A stretch of 64,000 nucleotides of DNA, from positions 3,582,400 through 3,646,399 of the forward strand of contig NZ_CP076718.1 of the NCBI RefSeq assembly GCF_011682235.2, written 5' to 3'. This document shows, one piece after another, positions 52,042 to 60,708 of this stretch (its first letter is position 1; each line of letters starts with the position of its first letter). The notes beneath the pieces were generated by a model. That model was not told the origin of the DNA. It did not search any database and was given only the letters and a program-made list of their open reading frames with translations. A program made the position numbers and the translations under genes. The stretch comes from Rhodocaloribacter litoris (lineage in GTDB: Bacteria; Bacteroidota; Rhodothermia; Rhodothermales; ISCAR-4553).

Positions 52042-52175
52042 ATTTCAACCCTCATCCGCCCCGGAGGGCGGATGCGATGCGCCGCCGGCACAGGGCGGGG
52101 CCTCCCACAAAACCCCGCATGGCGCTCCGGGCAAGGCCCGTGCTACGGCCGGGAGAATATCACCGTGTCACCTGT
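52042..52175 (-). repeat. Leader-like segment plus solitary CRISPR repeat (copy A), abutting the cytidine deaminase start
   Basis: The repeat at 52042-52078 differs from the array consensus at two positions (52049 and the last base 52078). On its 5' side in minus-strand direction is a 97-bp segment (52079-52175) that recurs next to repeat B, differing there by one substitution and a 3-bp insertion. No spacer follows the repeat: six bases later comes the cytidine deaminase ATG. The order segment-repeat is that of a CRISPR leader and its first repeat, so I interpret the segment as a duplicated leader. Confidence 0.7.
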
Positions 52176-52295: not shown

Positions 52296-52478
52296 CAGAG
52301 GGGGGATGCGATCCGTGGTGACGTCGCAACGGTATCGCCGCATTTCAATCCTCATCCGCCCCGGAGGGCGGATGCGATGCGCCGCCGGCACAGGGCGGGG
52401 CCTCCCACAAAACCCCGCATAGCGCTCCGGGCAAGGCCGCCCGTGCTACGGCCGGGAGAATATCACCGTGTCACCTGT
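52296..52478 (-). CRISPR. Mini-array: leader-like segment, repeat B, one 29-nt spacer-like sequence and a degenerate repeat
   Basis: Read on the minus strand: a 100-bp leader-like segment (52478-52379), then repeat B (52378-52342, one mismatch at its first base), then 29 nt (52341-52313). Next comes a partial repeat matching only the GTCGCATCC-side half (about 52312-52296). It resembles a one-spacer array with a decayed terminal repeat. The 29-nt element is shorter than the 35-38 nt spacers of the main array. Confidence 0.6.
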
Positions 52479-52526
52479 GCTTTTGGCGGCGCTTCCGTTG
52501 TACCTGCTGGCGACGGCGCGGTTTCT

Positions 52527-52927
52527 GTGCCTATGTGCATCCGCCCCGAAGGGCGGATGCGACGTGCGCTCGTCCGGCAGCCTGATCTCCTGCTGCACGT
52601 CATTTCAATCCTCATCCGCCCCGGAGGGCGGATGCGACTGCTCATGGCGTGTTCTCCATGCCGGGTTGGTCGAATTTCAATCCTCATCCGCCCCGGAGGG
52701 CGGATGCGACGTGGCTGGCCTGTATCTCGGGGCCATCAGCAGCCTATTTCAATCCTCATCCGCCCCGGAGGGCGGATGCGACTGCTCATGGCGTGTTCTC
52801 CATGCCGGGTTGGTCGAATTTCAATCCTCATCCGCCCCGGAGGGCGGATGCGACCAGACGCGGCGCAGCTACGACGACGCCGCCATACGCATTTCAATCC
52901 TCATCCGCCCCGGAGGGCGGATGCGAC
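52527..52927 (-). CRISPR. Type I-C CRISPR array: five perfect 37-bp repeats, one degenerate terminal repeat, five spacers
   Basis: Perfect repeats at 52602-52638, 52674-52710, 52746-52782, 52818-52854 and 52891-52927. On the plus strand they begin ATTTCAATCC and end GGATGCGAC. The reverse complement runs GTCGC...ATTGAAAT, the type I-C form, so the array is transcribed on the minus strand like the cas genes. The repeat has an internal 9-bp stem (CATCCGCCC/GGGCGGATG). Spacers are 38, 35, 35, 35 and 36 nt from low to high coordinate. The spacers at 52639-52673 and 52783-52817 are identical. The repeat at 52527-52563 has lost its ATTGAAAT end, as terminal repeats often do. The high-coordinate (leader) end joins the cas4 stub with no leader between. 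The 48 bases at 52479-52526 hold nothing recognised. Confidence 0.95.
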
Positions 52928-53145
52928 TCGACCCGCGCGTGCGCCCGTCGGCCGCGCAGCGTGAAGACGTTCTCGCTCCAGACCTGCTCGACGTGGATGA
53001 GGGCGCACTGGCGCGGGCAGTACACGTAGTGCTGGAGCGCCGAGATGGGCACCAGCTCGGTCTCGTCCCAGACCGGCGCCTCGTCCCAGACCGGCCCCGG
53101 ATCCGAACCGGATCGGGCATCGTTCAGGTGGTTGCCATCCGTCAT
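52894..53145 (-). pseudogene. cas4: cas4, N-terminal fragment ending inside a CRISPR repeat
   Basis: 83 codons from the ATG at 53145. The text ELVPISALQHYVYCPRQC, then ALIHVEQVWSENVFTLRGRR and AHARV is the conserved start of Cas4, including the first iron-sulfur cysteines (CPRQC). Cas4 homology stops after about 50 residues, precisely at the repeat starting at 52927. The frame continues through the repeat (ESHPPSGADED) and stops at TGA within its ATTGAAAT end. The RecB-type nuclease core and the C-terminal cysteine cluster are missing, and no cas1 or cas2 follows. Two 18-bp tandem copies at 53063-53098 duplicate VWDEAP/GP near the start. Functionally it must be dead for adaptation. Confidence 0.85.
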
Positions 53146-53161
53146 CAAAAAAAAAACGGGC

Positions 53162-53395
53162 ATGGTTTCTATCAGGAAGCGCGTGCGGGTACAGCCCGGC
53201 GGGGTCGTGTCTGTGCAGGATGCTTCGCTGCCGGAAGGTGCCGAAGCGGAGGTCATCGTCCGGCTCGGAGATACCGCGGAAGCAGAGCCTCCCCCGCTGC
53301 CGCTGGCCGGTATCGTTGGGAGCGGGCCGAGGTTGTTCGCAAGCCCTGAACAGATCGATCAGCACCTCCGAACCCTCCGCGACGAATGGGATTGA
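53162..53395 (+). CDS. Antitoxin-like protein paired with VapC
   Basis: 77 residues from the ATG at 53162, with the strand opposite to the cas genes. The N-terminus (MVSIRKRVRVQPGGVVSVQD) and EAEVIVRLGD suggest a short beta-rich DNA-binding antitoxin of AbrB/MazE kind, followed by a C-terminal stretch LFASPEQIDQHLRTLRDEWD that could wrap the toxin. The stop overlaps the toxin start by 10 bases, the usual antitoxin-toxin coupling. It starts only 16 bases from the divergent cas4 stub, so both share a very short promoter region containing an A10 run. The antitoxin family assignment rests mainly on context. Confidence 0.7.
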   Translation: MVSIRKRVRVQPGGVVSVQDASLPEGAEAEVIVRLGDTAEAEPPPLPLAGIVGSGPRLFASPEQIDQHLRTLRDEWD

Positions 53396-53829
53396 TCGAC
53401 GATCTGATCGGTCGCCGTGTGTACCTCGATGCCAACGTGTTCATCTATGCCGTAGAAGGACACGAGCCGTTCCAGGGGTTGCTTGGTAGGCTGTTCGGTG
53501 AGGTCGCGCACCAGGCCCTTCTGGCCTTCACCAGTGAACTGACACTGGCTGAAGTGTTGGTATGGCCTTTTCGTGAAGCCAGGGTGGATCTTGCAAGGCA
53601 CTACCGTTCGGTTGTTCAGACACACGAAGGCCTGACGGTTGTGCCGATCACGCGCTCGGTTCTCGTCGAAGCAGCCCGGCTTCGCGCCGCGACCATGCTC
53701 AAACTGCCCGATGCCATTCACGTGGCGACAGCCTTGCAGGCGGACTGCGAGGTGTTTCTCACCAACGACGCACGCCTACAGGGCCCCCCGGGCCTCGAGG
53801 TTATGCGGCTCGCTGACGCGCTGCCGTAG
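53386..53829 (+). CDS. VapC-like PIN-domain toxin
   Basis: 147 residues. PIN-domain acidic residues appear as YLDANVFIYAVEG, SELTLAEVLVWPF, LKLPDAIHVATAL and VFLTNDARL. This four-acid layout belongs to VapC ribonucleases, which cut tRNA or rRNA when released from the antitoxin. Translation is coupled to the antitoxin gene through an overlap. The stop is 3 bases from the convergent cas7 stop, so the pair is wedged tightly between cas7 and the cas4 stub. The specific RNA target is unknown. Confidence 0.88.
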   Translation: MGLIDDLIGRRVYLDANVFIYAVEGHEPFQGLLGRLFGEVAHQALLAFTSELTLAEVLVWPFREARVDLARHYRSVVQTHEGLTVVPITRSVLVEAARLRAATMLKLPDAIHVATALQADCEVFLTNDARLQGPPGLEVMRLADALP

Positions 53830-53832
53830 GCC

Positions 53833-54741
53833 TCACCCCACGAGTCGCGTCAGCGTCACGCCGGCCGGCAGGTTGTCCTCGTCGACGAGTACCTCGTAAT
53901 CGCTGAAGGCACGCGGGACGTCCACGCCATCCCGCTTCCGGGGGCGGATGCGGTCGAGGAGCGTGTGCGCCGGGGCGTTGCCGAGCCGGTTTTCGTGGGA
54001 GAAGACGTACAGGCCCCGGAGCGCCGTCAGGCCCCGCGAGGCGGAGCGGTCCAGGTCCCAGCACATCGTCAGCGCCTGCCAGAAGAGCGCCAGGTCGTCC
54101 GCATCGAAGCCGGTCTGCGCGGCCAGCATCGGGTTGTAGAAGCCGAAGCCCAGGTACAGGCCGTAGGGCACGATGGCCTTGCGGCCCATCTCGGTCTGCT
54201 TGCCGCGGGCTGTGGCGCCGTCGTCCGTCTCCACGAGCTGCACCGCGTCTTCCGGGCGCGTCACGGCCACGCGCGTGATCGAGAGATCCATCGGGACGAT
54301 GGGGTCCACGGAGCGGGCGAACGTCAGTTGGAGCGGCCCCCGCACCTGCCCGCAGTTGACGCCGGTGGTCATCACCGCGCCGAACGTGCGCACGTCGTAG
54401 AAATTGGCGCACATCCACGTGCGCGCCTTGTCGATGGTGGCGAGGTCCTGCTTGGCCCCGGTCGATTCCAGGTCGAGCGCCTGGTAGGCCCTTTCGTGCT
54501 GGTTGTTGAGCACGCCCAGGCGTTCGACGTAAATCTTGTATCGTTCCTCCGTGCCGCGCGAGGCGTCCACGAAGTCGCGGATCTTGCGCTTGATGCAGAC
54601 ATCGGTGACGAGGCCCTGCATGGTTTCGGGGTCCACGCGGGGCAGGTTGCCGGCGTCCGGGTCGCCGTTGGGGTTGCCGTCGGTCACGTCAAAGAGGAAA
54701 GCGAAGTCGTGGCGGCGCTGAGGGTCGAGGTGTGCGTTCAT
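53833..54741 (-). CDS. cas7: Type I-C Cas7 (Csd2) backbone subunit
   Basis: 302 residues from the ATG at 54741. Csd2/Cas7 hallmarks: RRHDFAFLFDVTDGNPNGDP, GLVTDVCIKRKIRDFV, YDVRTFGAVMTTG, GQVRGPLQLTFARSVDPI, KAIVPYGLYLGFGFYNP, and a C-terminal Csd2-type tail. Several copies coat the crRNA spacer to form the Cascade backbone. It is the last intact cas gene of the operon, 86 bases after cas8c. The vapC stop is 3 bases beyond its stop. No defects were seen. Confidence 0.95.
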   Translation of the reverse strand: MNAHLDPQRRHDFAFLFDVTDGNPNGDPDAGNLPRVDPETMQGLVTDVCIKRKIRDFVDASRGTEERYKIYVERLGVLNNQHERAYQALDLESTGAKQDLATIDKARTWMCANFYDVRTFGAVMTTGVNCGQVRGPLQLTFARSVDPIVPMDLSITRVAVTRPEDAVQLVETDDGATARGKQTEMGRKAIVPYGLYLGFGFYNPMLAAQTGFDADDLALFWQALTMCWDLDRSASRGLTALRGLYVFSHENRLGNAPAHTLLDRIRPRKRDGVDVPRAFSDYEVLVDEDNLPAGVTLTRLVG

Positions 54742-54827
54742 GGTGCTCAGGGTGTTTGCTGGGTGAAAAAAGGGAAAGAATGGGGGCATGGTTGGCGTGC
54801 CGACCGGGCGGGCCGTGCCGGCGCAGG

Positions 54828-56531
54828 TCAGTCGCCGGCTGCCTCCGCGGTCGCCTCGGCCGGTTCATCGCCGTCCGTCTTGCGGGGGCGGTGCTTCTGC
54901 TGGTAGAAGCCGATGGCGAAGAGGCCCTGTTCTTCGAGGGAGAGCGTGCGCGGGAAGCCATCGAGGTGGCTCATGATCTCGCCGAGCATCTGCTCGAAGT
55001 GGTGGTGCAGGCCGGGCTTTTCCTTGCGGAGCTTGCCCAGGTGGGCCTGAGCCTTGCGCAGGAGCACGCCGAAGACGCTGGCGGGCGTGGCGGAGGCCGA
55101 GCCGTAGAAGCGGTCCACGAGGGTGGCTTTGGGGCTGATGGCGTTGCGCTGGATGTCGTCCAGCACGGCGAGCAGGCGACCGCACTGGTAAGCGGCGCTC
55201 GGTTGGTCCGGGGTGAGGGCTTCGTGTACCATGCGTTCCTCCGATAGGTCAGGTTGGGATAGCAGGACGAGTTTGATGAGGGCGGCGCGGGGGCGTGTCA
55301 TGGCGTGCTCGCCGTCGGTGCGGGCCCGCTGGACGGCCCGGTGCAGGAGCGAGAGTGGGAGCGGCCGGCCGGTGAGGGCGTGCTCCAGGAGCAGCGGCAC
55401 GACCTGCGGAGGCAGCTTATCCCAATCAGGTCGTCCCTTTTTGATTGGGACCAGGGATGCGGCCAAGTTTTCTAGCTTGAGCGGCGGCGAGAGCCCGCGG
55501 TGGTTGAGGATGCGCTGGTGCTCGAAGTAGCGGGCCAGGTGGTGCTGTACCTCGTCCACGGTCATCGTCAGCCAGCTACGCACCACCATGCGCTTGTTCG
55601 ATGTGACGGCCAGCGCGTAGAAGTCGTTCGCGCGGACGGTCCCCGGCAGTGTGCCGGACTGCGGGGCGCGCAGTAGCCCCCGGACCTGCTCCTCGTCCGG
55701 GTCGGTGAAGAGCTTCATCACGTCGAAGTCGGTTGCCTCACGGGTCCAGAAGATCCAGTGCAGCCCGCCGAGGGACAGGTGATGTTTCGGGCTCTTGAGC
55801 AGGTAGGCGAGCGCCTCGCCGTACATCCGCGCGCACCGCTGGCACATCGGCGCGATCTCCGACCGGCTCAGGCCGTACGACTCGAAGGCATCCTTGTTGG
55901 CCGAGACGAGCGGGGCGGCGTCCGGCCCCACGCGTACATCCACCGGATGCACCTGGACAATCGGTTTCTCCTCGCCGCACAGCATGCACCGGGCGGTGAG
56001 GGTGCTGTCCTCGGCGGCGCGTTCGTCCTCGTGGTTCTGCCACCAGGCCTGCACCTCCGGCAGGTCTGTCAGGAACGTCTCCCCGACGCGGGGCGCGATG
56101 AGGTCGCCGGGTTTCATCTCCGCCGTCGCCGGGTGCGCCCGTGCCGCCTCGATCTCCTCGTCGAGGAAGCGGAGGAAGGCGTCCGTCGCCGGGTGGTGTA
56201 CGGACAGCGCGCACGCCTCGGCGAGCCGGCGGTACGCCGTGTGGCGCTCGTCCGCCTGCGCCCGTGCCTTCTCCGTGTCGGCATCGGGCCGCCCGAGGAC
56301 GTACGACGGCTTGTCCACGAAGAGCAGCGCCCGTGTCCCGGAGGTACGCTTCAGGGTGGGCGCGACGATCTCCACGTAATCCTCCTTGCCCGTCTCGGCC
56401 CGTTCGATGTTCAGAAAACGGCCGTCCTCGTCGAGGGCAAGGATCCACGGGACACGCTGTTTTTTGTGGTAGGCCGGAACCAGTTCACCGGCCAGGCGCG
56501 CGTGCAGGTCGCGAAGTCGTTCGAGGATCAT
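54828..56531 (-). CDS. cas8c: Type I-C Cas8c (Csd1) large subunit
   Basis: 567 residues. The N-terminal half begins LERLRDLHARLAGELVPAYH and continues PWILALDEDGRFLNIERAE, as in Csd1. CMLCGEEKPIVQVHP with a later MCQRCARMYGEAL gives the Cys pairs common to this family. The C-terminal helical region ends EQGLFAIGFYQQKHRPRK. Cas8c recognises the PAM and helps recruit Cas3 to the target DNA; an internal start can encode Cas11c in type I-C. The gene starts 12 bases after cas5c. The last 20 residues are Glu/Ala-rich. The frame is intact. Confidence 0.94.
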   Translation of the reverse strand: MILERLRDLHARLAGELVPAYHKKQRVPWILALDEDGRFLNIERAETGKEDYVEIVAPTLKRTSGTRALLFVDKPSYVLGRPDADTEKARAQADERHTAYRRLAEACALSVHHPATDAFLRFLDEEIEAARAHPATAEMKPGDLIAPRVGETFLTDLPEVQAWWQNHEDERAAEDSTLTARCMLCGEEKPIVQVHPVDVRVGPDAAPLVSANKDAFESYGLSRSEIAPMCQRCARMYGEALAYLLKSPKHHLSLGGLHWIFWTREATDFDVMKLFTDPDEEQVRGLLRAPQSGTLPGTVRANDFYALAVTSNKRMVVRSWLTMTVDEVQHHLARYFEHQRILNHRGLSPPLKLENLAASLVPIKKGRPDWDKLPPQVVPLLLEHALTGRPLPLSLLHRAVQRARTDGEHAMTRPRAALIKLVLLSQPDLSEERMVHEALTPDQPSAAYQCGRLLAVLDDIQRNAISPKATLVDRFYGSASATPASVFGVLLRKAQAHLGKLRKEKPGLHHHFEQMLGEIMSHLDGFPRTLSLEEQGLFAIGFYQQKHRPRKTDGDEPAEATAEAAGD

Positions 56532-56543
56532 GAGGGCCTCCGT

Positions 56544-57191
56544 TCAACGTGGATCGTACAGTTCCTGCGGGACGTGGAGCACGCCGCGTTCGAGGCGGGC
56601 GCGGAAAAACAAGGGGTGGCCGCGTCCGTCGTCGCCGTAGCGAAGGTCGAAGAGCATGCGCCCGAGGTCCTCGGTGCGGTCGATGGGCTGCTCCGTGCCG
56701 TCGGGCTCTGCGAAGCCGGCGCTGAACTCGCGGCAGCCCAGGTAGGGGTGGTGGAAGCATTGCCCGCGGGCGACGCGGCGGCGGAACTGGTCGCGGTACT
56801 TGGCCGGGTGCGCGTCGCCCGTGCGGGTGCGCAGGTGCACGTCGGCCTCGATGAGGTAAGCCACATCGCGGAGGGCGAGCGTGTGCCGCTGGGTGCGGTC
56901 GAGGTCGGTGAAGTAGCCGCCGCCGCTCTCGGCCCAGCCTTTCGCCGCGCGCTCGGAGGCCTTCGTGTTGACCTCGTTGCGGAGCAGGGAGATGCGGCGG
57001 ATGGGCCGGAGGACGTGGATGCACTGCACGCGCCATTCAAACTCGGGCTTCCAGAAGATGGCCTCCAGGATGCCGCGCGCGGCCGAGGGGGTCATCACGT
57101 CGTACGTCACGCGCTCGACCTTCATCTCTGGGCGGGTGAAGCAGGCGTATTCGCCCCAGACCTTCACGCGGACCGGTGTGTAATCGGGCAT
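56544..57191 (-). CDS. cas5c: Type I-C Cas5 (Cas5d), crRNA-processing subunit
   Basis: 215 residues. It begins TPVRVKVWGEYACFTRPEMK and continues VERVTYDVMTPSAARGILEA, a clear Cas5 RAMP start, then IFWKPEFEWRVQCIHVLRPI. In type I-C, Cas5 replaces Cas6 and cleaves the repeat RNA, leaving an 11-nt 5' handle, and stays bound to the handle in Cascade. The absence of cas6 is therefore normal. It sits 25 bases after cas3 and 12 before cas8c, so it is in the same transcript. The catalytic Tyr/Lys/His set was not resolved by eye. Confidence 0.94.
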   Translation of the reverse strand: MPDYTPVRVKVWGEYACFTRPEMKVERVTYDVMTPSAARGILEAIFWKPEFEWRVQCIHVLRPIRRISLLRNEVNTKASERAAKGWAESGGGYFTDLDRTQRHTLALRDVAYLIEADVHLRTRTGDAHPAKYRDQFRRRVARGQCFHHPYLGCREFSAGFAEPDGTEQPIDRTEDLGRMLFDLRYGDDGRGHPLFFRARLERGVLHVPQELYDPR

Positions 57192-57216: not shown

Positions 57217-59399
57217 TTAGATCACGGGGTCGTCGAGGAGCGGAAATTCCATCTGCAGGCCGCGCAGGTCGTCGTAGACGCCGTGCCAGACCCACACGCC
57301 GGGCACCCATTCCTCGCACAGGCGCTGCGCGACGGCCTGTTCGTGGAGGCGGGCGCGCAGGCTCACGAGGAACGGTTGCAATGCCCGGTAGTCTGGCCGG
57401 AAGGCCTGCCCCTGCCGCCGGATGCGGTCGAGCACGGCCTGCCGCACGCCGGGCCGCCCGGGCGGGTCGTAGGGCACCACGACGGGCACCGTGTCGTCCG
57501 GGATGAGCCGGTAGGCCCGGGCAACCTGCTCGAAGTTGAAGGCGGCCCACTTGTCCAGGATGTTTTCCTCGTCGAGCGCCTCGCGCAGATTCCCGTAGAG
57601 CAGGCGGAAATACCTCAGGGGGAGCTCCGGGTCGTCGAGGTCCGGCGGTGGGTCGGTGGCGAGGAGGGTTCGGGTGACGGAGGTGCCGGACTTGTAGGCG
57701 CCGAGGGGGAGCCCACCCTGCTCGGGGTCGAAGATCACCACGCGCCCGGCATCGAGCCGGCCCTCGCGGTTGCAGCGTCCGGCGGCCTGGATGATGCGGT
57801 CGAGCGGGCCGAGGGCGCGGAGGACGAGGGGGAAGTCGAGGTCCACGCCCGCCTCGACCACCTGCGTGGAGATGAGGTGCACAGGCTCGCGCCGGGCCAG
57901 GCGCTGCCGCACGTCCGCGAGCACCACGCGCCGGTGCGCCCCGCAGAGCAGGGTCGAGAGGTGGAGCACGTCCCGCCCGTCCGCTTCGTCCAGCAGCGCC
58001 ATCGCATCCCGGATGGTGTTCAGCACCACCATCGCCTGCGCTTCCTCGAAGAGCGTTGCCGCCACCCGGGGCCACGGCCACGGCGTCTGCACGTCGATCT
58101 CGTACCGGACGCGCCGCAGCCGGTCGAACACCGAGGCCGGGTCGGGCAGGATCTCGCGGACGTTCGGGAGGCCCGGGAAGCCGGGGCGCTCCGCCAGGGC
58201 GGGCTGCGTGGCGGTGCTCAGGACGAGGGTCACGCCGTAGGCCTCCACCAGGTGCGCCAGCGCGTCGAGCGTGGGCCGCAGCAGGCGCGGGGGGAGGGTC
58301 TGCACCTCGTCGAGGATGAGGACGCTTCCGGCGAGGTTGTGCAGCTTGCGGACGCGGGAGTTCCGGTTGGCGAACAGGCTTTCGAGGAGCTGGACGGTCG
58401 TCGTCACGATGATGGGGGCGTCCCAGTTCTCGGCGGCCAGGCGCGCCCGGCGTTCCGACGCCGACTCGGTGCCCGGCGCTTCGCGGCTGTAGGCGGCGCT
58501 GTGGTGTTCGAGCACGGCCTCGTCGCCGAACAGCGCGCGGTACACGTCGGCGTTCTGCTCGATGATGCTCGTGTACGGCAGGGCGACGATCACGCGGCGC
58601 TTGCCGTGGCGGAGGGCGTGCCGCAGGGCGAAGGCCATGGCCGAGCGCGTCTTGCCGGCCCCCGTGGGCGCCGTCAGGGAAAAGATGCCGGGGGCATCGT
58701 GGGCCCGAGCCAGGCACGCGGCATAGACCTCCCGCCGGACTTCGTTGACCGGCCCCGTTTTGCCTTCCATCAGGGCCCGCTGCTGCGTTTCGAACCGGGA
58801 CCAGAGCACGGGCAGGTCCACACGGGCCGTCCGGACGGTGGCCTTCTCCGGCTGGAAATGCTGTTCCGTGTCGAGGCAGTCGGCATCGACCAGGGCGCTG
58901 TGGAGCATGCGGGTCCAGAAGGCCAGCCTTCGCCGGTGGGAGGAGGGGTCGGGTGCCCCGACGAATGCGGGCAGGTCGTCCGGGCCGGGCGTGGGCACCC
59001 GGCCTTCGAGCAGGCGGCGGGCTCGCGCGAGCGCCTCCACGACCCGGGGTTCGCTACGCTTTCTCTCGATCCGCTCCCGCAGGTGTTCCTGGTCCACCAG
59101 GCCGCCGTGGTGTCCGGCCACGTTGAAGGCCAGCGGTGGCAGCACCTCGGCGGCCTCCAGCATTCCCGCGCTGGAGTGGTCGGGGCCGCGGGGCGTGTCG
59201 GTTTCGCCGCGCAGGTAGGCCTGTACGTCGGGCGCGACCTTGCCGGCGTCGTGCCACCTGCCGAGCCAGTCGCCGAAGCCGCGCTGCCGAAGGCGGCGGC
59301 GAACGTCCGGGCGCGGCAGGCCACGCCTTCCAGGTGGTCGAGCAGCGACTGCGGGGTGCCGTCGGGACCGGCCGAATGGGCGATCAGCGTGTCGGGCAT
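57217..59399 (-). pseudogene. cas3: cas3 (HD nuclease/helicase) with a frameshift in the HD domain
   Basis: Two frames make up one Cas3. The first starts at 59399 with PDTLIAHSAGPDGTPQSLLD and HLEGVACRARTFAAAFG. The second, read from about 59280 downwards, supplies RGFGDWLGRWHDAGKVAPDV and DHSSAG, the remaining HD-nuclease motifs, then the helicase: Walker A TAPTGAGKTRSAMA, LILDEVQTLPPRLL and QAAGRCNREGR. The switch near 59275-59283 needs one added base. The local sequence (TTCGGCAGCGCGGC) is not a homopolymer, so it is less likely a sequencing slip than the one in ftsK. The downstream frame could start at the ATG at 59163 but would then lack HDAGK and DHSSAG. Cas3 degrades DNA after Cascade binding. 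Confidence 0.85.
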
Positions 59400-59414: not shown

Positions 59415-60434
59415 TCAGGGGTGACGGGATTCGTCGAGGGTTCCGACGCCGGCATAGAGGGCGGCCATGCGCCGGGCCTCACGGGCGATGCGGTGGCGCA
59501 GCTCCGGCGGTGAGATGACTTCGGCCTCGCCGCCGTAGGAGAGCACCCAGCGGGCCACGTCGGCCAGGCCGGCTACCTCCATGTGGAGGTCCAGACTGCC
59601 ATCCGGGCGCATGAACATCATCTGGCTCTCGTGCCAGCGTTCTTCGCGGATCCAGCGGGCTTGATAGGGAGAGAAACGAATGTGGACGGCGTAGCGACGT
59701 TCGCCCCGGTGCATACCGAAGGCGGGACCCAGGTAGGCGTCCAGGTCGAACGTTGCATCCCGGACGAACACCTCGTTTCGTATTTCGAAGGCTTGTATCC
59801 GGTCGACGCGAAAGTCGCGCATGGCCTGCCGCAGGCGACAGTAGGCGATCAGGTAGCCCCGGCCCTGGTAAGAGAGCAGGTGGTAGGGTTCCACGTCACG
59901 CTCGGTTTCCTGGCCCCGGCTGTTCGAATAGTAGCGCATCCGAACGACGCGCTGGCTTGCAATGGCTTCCGAAAGGGCCTCCAGGTAGGGCAACGGGGTG
60001 GCCGGTCCCGGCCCGCGTTCGAAGCGGATCGTACGCGAGAGCGTCTCCGGCTCGACGCGGATCGTTTCGGGCAGGTGATCGGACAGGCGCTCCATCACCC
60101 GTTCGAGCAGATCGGCATGCGCGGTGTCTCCCAGGGCGTCCAGGGCATGGCGGGCCACGAGAAAGGCGGCGAACTCGGTGCGAGTCAGGGACAGGATCGG
60201 CAGGTTGCCGAAAGGCTCCGTCAGCACGTAGGACCGTTTCCGTCGGTCAAAGGTCAGCGGGACCCCGATCTGCCGCAGGTATTCGAGATCGCTGGCAATG
60301 GTGCGGGAGGATACTTCGAACGCTTCGGCGGCCAGAGCCTGGGTCAGACGACGACCCGTGCGAAGCCATTCGAGCAGTTTCTGAAGTCGCCAGAGTTGTG
60401 GTCCCGATGGGGAGGAGCGGGGAACCCTTGGCAT
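59415..60434 (-). CDS. WYL-domain transcriptional regulator at the head of the cas operon
   Basis: 339 residues from the ATG at 60434. The N-terminal helix-turn-helix is DeoR-like (WLRTGRRLTQALAAEAFEVS, then SRTIASDLEYLRQIGVPLTF). The WYL core follows (RVVRMRYYSNSRGQETERDV and YLIAYCRLRQAMRDFRVDRI), then a WCX-type C-terminal extension (VHIRFSPYQARWIREERW). WYL regulators sense ligands, perhaps nucleic-acid fragments, and several control CRISPR-Cas expression. Its stop lies 15 bases before cas3, so it is probably co-transcribed and may autoregulate the operon from the 274-base upstream gap. It is intact, unlike cas3 and cas4. Confidence 0.9.
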   Translation of the reverse strand: MPRVPRSSPSGPQLWRLQKLLEWLRTGRRLTQALAAEAFEVSSRTIASDLEYLRQIGVPLTFDRRKRSYVLTEPFGNLPILSLTRTEFAAFLVARHALDALGDTAHADLLERVMERLSDHLPETIRVEPETLSRTIRFERGPGPATPLPYLEALSEAIASQRVVRMRYYSNSRGQETERDVEPYHLLSYQGRGYLIAYCRLRQAMRDFRVDRIQAFEIRNEVFVRDATFDLDAYLGPAFGMHRGERRYAVHIRFSPYQARWIREERWHESQMMFMRPDGSLDLHMEVAGLADVARWVLSYGGEAEVISPPELRHRIAREARRMAALYAGVGTLDESRHP

Positions 60435-60708
60435 AAGCGATTCGGGAAATCCGGGGATATTTGTAAAACACACGGATGCGCGAAAAATAACCTGTGCGCA
60501 GGGTGTACGGGCATGAATACGACCATTACCTTGAAATCCGACTTCAGGGTAAAAGAAAAAATTGTCCGGTGCTGTGCGGGGATCGGCCGGTCTCCCCCAC
60601 AACCCACACAACCGCCCGCGATTTCCTTGCCCGCCGGTGTAACCGGGTTGCCCGGAAGTCATCTTTTTTTGTAAAGTCCGGGGTATGGATCGGTAGCCGG
60701 AGCATCAC
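60435..60708. promoter_or_regulatory. Divergent intergenic region between WYL-cas operon and multicopper oxidase
   Basis: 274 bases that must hold the promoters of both divergent units. It contains several AT-rich patches (around 60480-60492, 60540-60562 and 60662-60680) in an otherwise GC-rich context. No clear -33/-7 pair or inverted operator was identified. Confidence 0.4.

Follow-up and report, generated by a model that had tools for sequence, protein, structure and literature searches.

In the type I-C Cas3 of N. lactamica, two metals are held by H8, H25, H52, D53, H118, and H119, according to PMC11417383. Cas3 of types I-A and I-D is split, with the nuclease and the helicase on separate polypeptides and the split between the domains (PMC10212523). 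Degraded cas loci with cas3 pseudogenes, frameshifts, and partial deletions are known in Salmonella, Escherichia, and Shigella (PMC2886076). The locus in this study was compared with each of them. Its helicase and part of its HD domain align by sequence with N. lactamica Cas3 (PDB 8zns and 8g9u); however, it has no single frame holding all six ligands. Unlike in types I-A and I-D, the split lies inside the HD domain and one part is left without a start codon. As in the degraded loci of PMC2886076, lesions stand beside otherwise recognizable cas genes, but those loci are of other subtypes and from other bacteria, whereas here the adaptation module and the leader were deleted. A paper about this locus was not found in a literature search.

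The window is the whole stretch of DNA that was analyzed, 64,000 nucleotides of the Rhodocaloribacter litoris genome (G000:C1:3582400-3646399), which is a single contig of 4.5 Mb and 99.9% complete. The minus strand order is a WYL-domain regulator, cas3, cas5c, cas8c, cas7, an antisense PIN-domain pair, a cas4 remnant, and a CRISPR array. The type I-C assignment was based on cas5c (56544..57191, TIGR01876), cas8c/csd1 (54828..56531, TIGR01863 and Cas_Csd1), and cas7c/csd2 (53833..54789, TIGR02589), which lie in one operon, are full length, and all score above the curated cut-offs of the three TIGR models. Other cas8c genes are known to contain an internal start for Cas11. Upstream of the operon is a WYL/WCX-domain HTH regulator (59415..60662, minus strand; Pfam WYL and WCX). 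The locus of Roseithermus sacchariphilus MEBiC09517 (L034, CP030158.1) has the same gene order from regulator to trailer, the same repeat, and a PIN-type pair in the same antisense position. It differs in having an intact cas3 of 727 aa in one frame, a cas4-cas1-cas2 module, a leader, and about 40 repeats. By blastn, positions 60224-52928 of the window matched this locus at 90.2% nucleotide identity, though the two genomes belong to different families; the DNA-level match includes only the part of the regulator from 60224 downstream, so that the edge of similarity falls inside this gene. Horizontal exchange of the CRISPR cassette with Roseithermus appears likely from this comparison.

The PIN-domain pair lies on the plus strand between cas7 and the cas4 remnant. 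It consists of a toxin-like gene (53386..53829, PF01850) and a preceding putative antitoxin ORF (53045..53395) with no family match. A similar PIN-type ORF was seen by eye at the equivalent place in L034. The pair (53045-53829) may be an addiction module carried along with the cas operon.

The frame opened by the cas3 start codon, ATG 59399, begins with MPDTLIAHSAGPDGTPQSLLDHLEGVACRARTFAAAFGSA. Its first 40 or so residues are those typical of a type I-C Cas3, and the Met, the HD N-terminus, and the first two metal-ligand histidines (His8 and His22, assigned from N. lactamica Cas3 by position and motif) fall in 59280..59399 of the minus strand. Nonsense follows up to a stop at 58770. The resulting ORF of 209 aa (58770..59399) had no match among NCBIfam and Pfam families. 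A second frame runs without a stop from 59478 to 57217 and contains GFGDWLGRWHDAGK; HDAGK, DHSSAG, AGHHGG, the RecA-like helicase, and the C-terminal domain are read in it (57217..59277). This frame matched TIGR01596 cas3_HD (positions 33-177 of the 178 in the model), TIGR01587 cas3_core, DEAD, and Cas3-like_C_2. No single frame thus holds the complete HD domain together with the helicase. The earlier note had placed the start and the HD N-terminus in one frame and HDAGK, DHSSAG, and the helicase in another, and the ORFs and family matches bear this out. The frame break within the HD nuclease domain of cas3 is confirmed.

The site of the break was located by comparison with relatives and by codon usage. 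DNA alignment of cas3 with L034 covered 696 positions at 89% identity and showed a single gap, which lies on the window side between 59279 and 59278. The cas3 of a Rhodothermales MAG (L035) is likewise one unbroken frame across the site. A two-strand codon-usage scan to which the site was not given placed the frame change at 59286. The one-base loss is hence assigned to 59278..59286, in agreement with the earlier claim of a missing base near 59275-59283. The site had also been called non-homopolymeric; this holds for the window as it stands, with base runs of at most 2 within 59265-59304.

Related cas3 loci were then surveyed, using the best 80 of 576 confirmed ones. An HD.GK-type motif lay in the same open frame in 77 of these 80. 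One further locus, L105, missed only the motif pattern and aligned in a single frame over residues 2 to 715; the region is therefore unbroken in 78/80. The exceptions, in which the motif is not in frame, are L086 and L094, and both represent a conserved split in Chlorobium. With 78 of the best 80 relatives in one frame, the break in the window cas3 is confirmed, at the level of sequence comparison, as more than chance.

The consequence for the protein was read from the distribution of the six HD metal ligands. Their equivalents are divided 2+2+2 among the product of the start frame, a startless stretch with the HD pair, and the ORF opened by ATG 59163; the first four were assigned by position and motif, as the phmmer alignment began at residue 30 of the second-frame query. 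No ATG-, GTG-, or TTG-started polypeptide holding all six could be read from the window sequence. The second frame has no ATG, GTG, or TTG before HDAGK, and CTG occurs only at 59418, at 59319, and, after HDAGK, at 59214. Its first start is ATG 59163, which opens a helicase-only ORF of 648 aa (57217..59163, minus strand) without HDAGK and DHSSAG. Because no single polypeptide carries all six ligands, target degradation by the window Cas3 should be lost. The claim that the locus cannot degrade targets is upheld in this form, as a loss predicted from ligands spread over three pieces, and we infer that interference is lost at the type I-C locus. Translation from the cas3 start would yield a dead peptide of 209 aa, and initiation at ATG 59163 would yield at most a helicase without a complete HD nuclease.

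The age of the lesion was estimated from the part of cas3 after the break. Codons of the window, Roseithermus, and L035 were compared, and changes were polarized. The window branch had 16 synonymous and 5 nonsynonymous changes, and the Roseithermus branch had 22 and 16, respectively; 26 differing positions (14 nonsynonymous and 12 synonymous) were not polarizable and were dropped. Against a neutral expectation of 0.735 nonsynonymous, 5 of 21 gives P = 2.9e-6 with these 26 positions dropped. In the worst case, with all 14 dropped nonsynonymous and none of the 12 dropped synonymous changes on the window branch, P = 0.011; in a cruder worst case, with all 26 counted as nonsynonymous, P = 0.16. 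Under simple assumptions, an unconstrained share of more than about 10 to 20% of the window branch is unlikely. Relaxed selection on cas3, expected only if the lesion is old, was not found, and the second frame is still free of stops over its 753 codons. Pairwise dN/dS against Roseithermus was 0.107 for cas5c, 0.28 for cas8c, and 0.054 for cas7. The helicase frame was under selection until recently; hence, the frameshift is either young or a consensus error. An old pseudogene is disfavored by the substitution pattern of the window branch, and the substitutions do not point to a long-standing loss of interference.

The second lesion of the locus is a deletion. Past 52928, the window passes at a clean junction from within cas4 straight into a repeat, beginning at its first base, where Roseithermus has 1,959 nt between the breakpoint (15196) and the first repeat (17155). 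The cas4 gene is cut to about a third, and only its 5' part is left of the cas4-cas1-cas2 module (52928..53256, minus strand; TIGR00372 model positions 2-43 of 180, PF01930 below cut-off). In place of the leader, the array is preceded by the cas4 remnant. The earlier claim that adaptation genes were lost stands, as the locus has neither cas1 nor cas2; the Cas1 matches of this genome all lie elsewhere, at one locus at 2.68 Mb and another at 1.33 Mb. That the frameshift fits this loss, as had also been suggested, does not follow: the two are separate lesions, the deletion with a cas4-repeat junction to itself, and nothing places one before the other. Relative to the intact homologue, the locus is degraded by both a one-base loss in cas3 and a cas4-to-repeat deletion. 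The earlier note's reading is thus supported in part. Its claim that the locus can assemble Cascade is not among the supported points, since the deletion took the leader too and crRNAs would have to come from transcription running on from the cas operon. A sigma-70 consensus scan, which may not suit this organism, found no promoter-like site in 52500-54000.

The array (52527..52927, minus strand) consists of five perfect 37-nt repeats, a degenerate terminal repeat, and five spacers, two of which are identical. Its repeat is identical to that of Roseithermus, and the two arrays have no spacer in common. All four distinct spacers matched only the array in a search of the genome at up to 3 mismatches; self-targeting as a driver of cas3 loss was rejected on this ground. 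Exact 23-base stretches from two of the four gave no match in IMG/VR. The repeated spacer lies in 52602-52854, where the repeat-spacer stretch is 100% identical. The array trailer with a lone repeat is duplicated about 300 bp apart (52042-52175 and 52342-52478), and the Roseithermus array is followed by a similar trailer. At the junction 52927/52928, the cas4 remnant exactly abuts the first base of the first repeat (52891..52927). This base is the position where Cas1-Cas2 normally acts. The junction may have arisen by chance, by microhomology with a lost spacer, or by aberrant integration.

The background of frame breaks was estimated in 464 kb, made up of the window and 20 stretches of 20 kb from the same genome, two of which were its other CRISPR loci. 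The codon-usage scan gave 56 same-strand frame-change junctions, of which 5 were flagged; in simulations, it recovered 37 of 72 one-base losses. Two of the flags were cas3 and the type I-E cas1; the other three came from the 18 random stretches. By eye and without a family search, these three were an IS3-type overlapping pair, an ordinary boundary between genes, and a HEPN-like gene. The last, at L132:1899, adjoins a nucleotidyltransferase-like ORF. The type I-E cas1 is frame-broken, with positions 2-208 and 206-268 of the Cas1e model matched in different frames (L125:14628-15540; G000:C1 about 1,333,300). In the random stretches, unexplained breaks number about 1 per 180 kb at this sensitivity, while cas genes contain two. 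So low a background speaks for a good consensus, with the reservation that few stretches were sampled and that decay may be faster in cas genes than in others.

The genome has two further type I loci. The type I-B locus has cas1b, cas4, and a Cas3 of 870 aa matched by the HD model over its whole length, and the type I-E locus has a Cas3 of 958 aa in which HD was matched. Cas3 recruitment is subtype-specific; hence, backup in trans by either protein was judged unlikely.

Taken together, the cas3 break and the lost acquisition genes look like ordinary, recent immune-system decay. We consider it probable that the type I-C locus was horizontally shared and is decaying through the cas4-to-repeat deletion and a separate, recent one-base loss in cas3. 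A single deletion would have removed cas1, cas2, the leader, and all of cas4 but its 5' third, which it left joined to the first base of a CRISPR repeat. Separately and recently, the loss of one base would have split the first two HD ligands from the remaining HD domain and the helicase. A sequencing or assembly error would give the same picture in cas3: the organism would have an intact gene and a working, spacer-frozen type I-C system, and only the deletion of the adaptation module and leader would be real. The lack of stops after the break and the purifying selection on the window branch are as a consensus error would look, and the similar break in the type I-E cas1 could have a shared technical cause. 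However, the completeness of the single-contig genome, the fall of two of its rare unexplained breaks in cas genes, and the short base runs at the site in the window speak against an error, which we regard as rather unlikely. We infer that the organism itself, and not only its assembly, lacks the base.

Two other readings would accept the lesion and leave the locus a function. A Cascade without nuclease and with frozen spacers, with or without the helicase from ATG 59163, could have been repurposed and kept as a DNA-binding silencer. The full-length cas5c, cas8c, and cas7 with their low dN/dS fit such a role; however, equally low values are expected from an operon that was functional until recently, the leader is lost, no host target is visible among the four distinct spacers at up to 3 mismatches, and the sigma-70 scan of 52500-54000, with a consensus possibly unsuited to the organism, offered no promoter-like site. 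Such repurposing is very unlikely. The break could also be bridged, by recoding at the site or by rebuilding the HD domain from two polypeptides, and a split inside this domain is indeed kept in Chlorobiaceae (18 of the 18 loci tested). There, however, the C part has its own ATG at the break, with a Shine-Dalgarno-like motif in most loci; the window has no such start, as its second frame is without ATG, GTG, or TTG before HDAGK, and this speaks against bridging. No slippery heptamer of the form X-XXY-YYZ was visible by eye at 59270-59290, and the combination of slippery sequence and stimulator that marks programmed frameshifting was, again by eye, not found at the shift. Bridging is likewise very unlikely. 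Counted as one possibility, a spacer-frozen Cascade silencer expressed by read-through with the ATG-59163 helicase, or an HD domain rebuilt from two polypeptides, would in our analysis have only a very small chance of being correct.

If the probable reading of recent decay is real, the locus would be a snapshot of CRISPR decay, with lesions in adaptation and interference beside an intact sister locus of 90% identity. From the substitution data, the break in cas3 would date to the final part of the branch. It would also caution against counting the three type I loci of this genome as three working systems.

The split cas3 of L086 and L094, two Chlorobium MAGs, was followed further. In both, the gene is divided between HD motif II and DHSSAG. 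A genus search gave any match in 31 of 65 genomes, and a family search that repeated the genus gave 35 of 86. The 18 loci tested are those whose match reaches back to residue 1 or 2 in the C part; weaker matches start further in. The HD domain is split in all 18: the N-terminal ORF stops at TAA or TGA, and a second ORF, overlapping it by 8 or 14 nt, starts with ATG and reads MGKIDHS or a close variant. GGAGG or GAGGAG, which is Shine-Dalgarno-like, lies just upstream of the C-part ATG in 16/18. The N ORF is about 79-84 aa from its ATG and holds motifs I-II, and the C ORF is 662-668 aa where complete and non-chimeric. The split loci are L086:898-3145, L094:3111-5346, L149-L161, and L169-L173. 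Between L086 and L094, dS was 0.48 and dN 0.023 for the N half, and 0.20 and 0.022, respectively, for the C half; in this one pair tested, both halves are under purifying selection. A description of this split was not found in a literature search. It makes testable an HD nuclease built from two coupled polypeptides. Degraded cas loci are already known (PMC2886076), and the HD split of Chlorobiaceae is the more interesting by-product of this study. L160 and L161 are chimeric Chlorobium cas3 genes, which begin with a split-type N fragment and the opening codons of the C part and continue as another Cas3 that has an HD motif itself.
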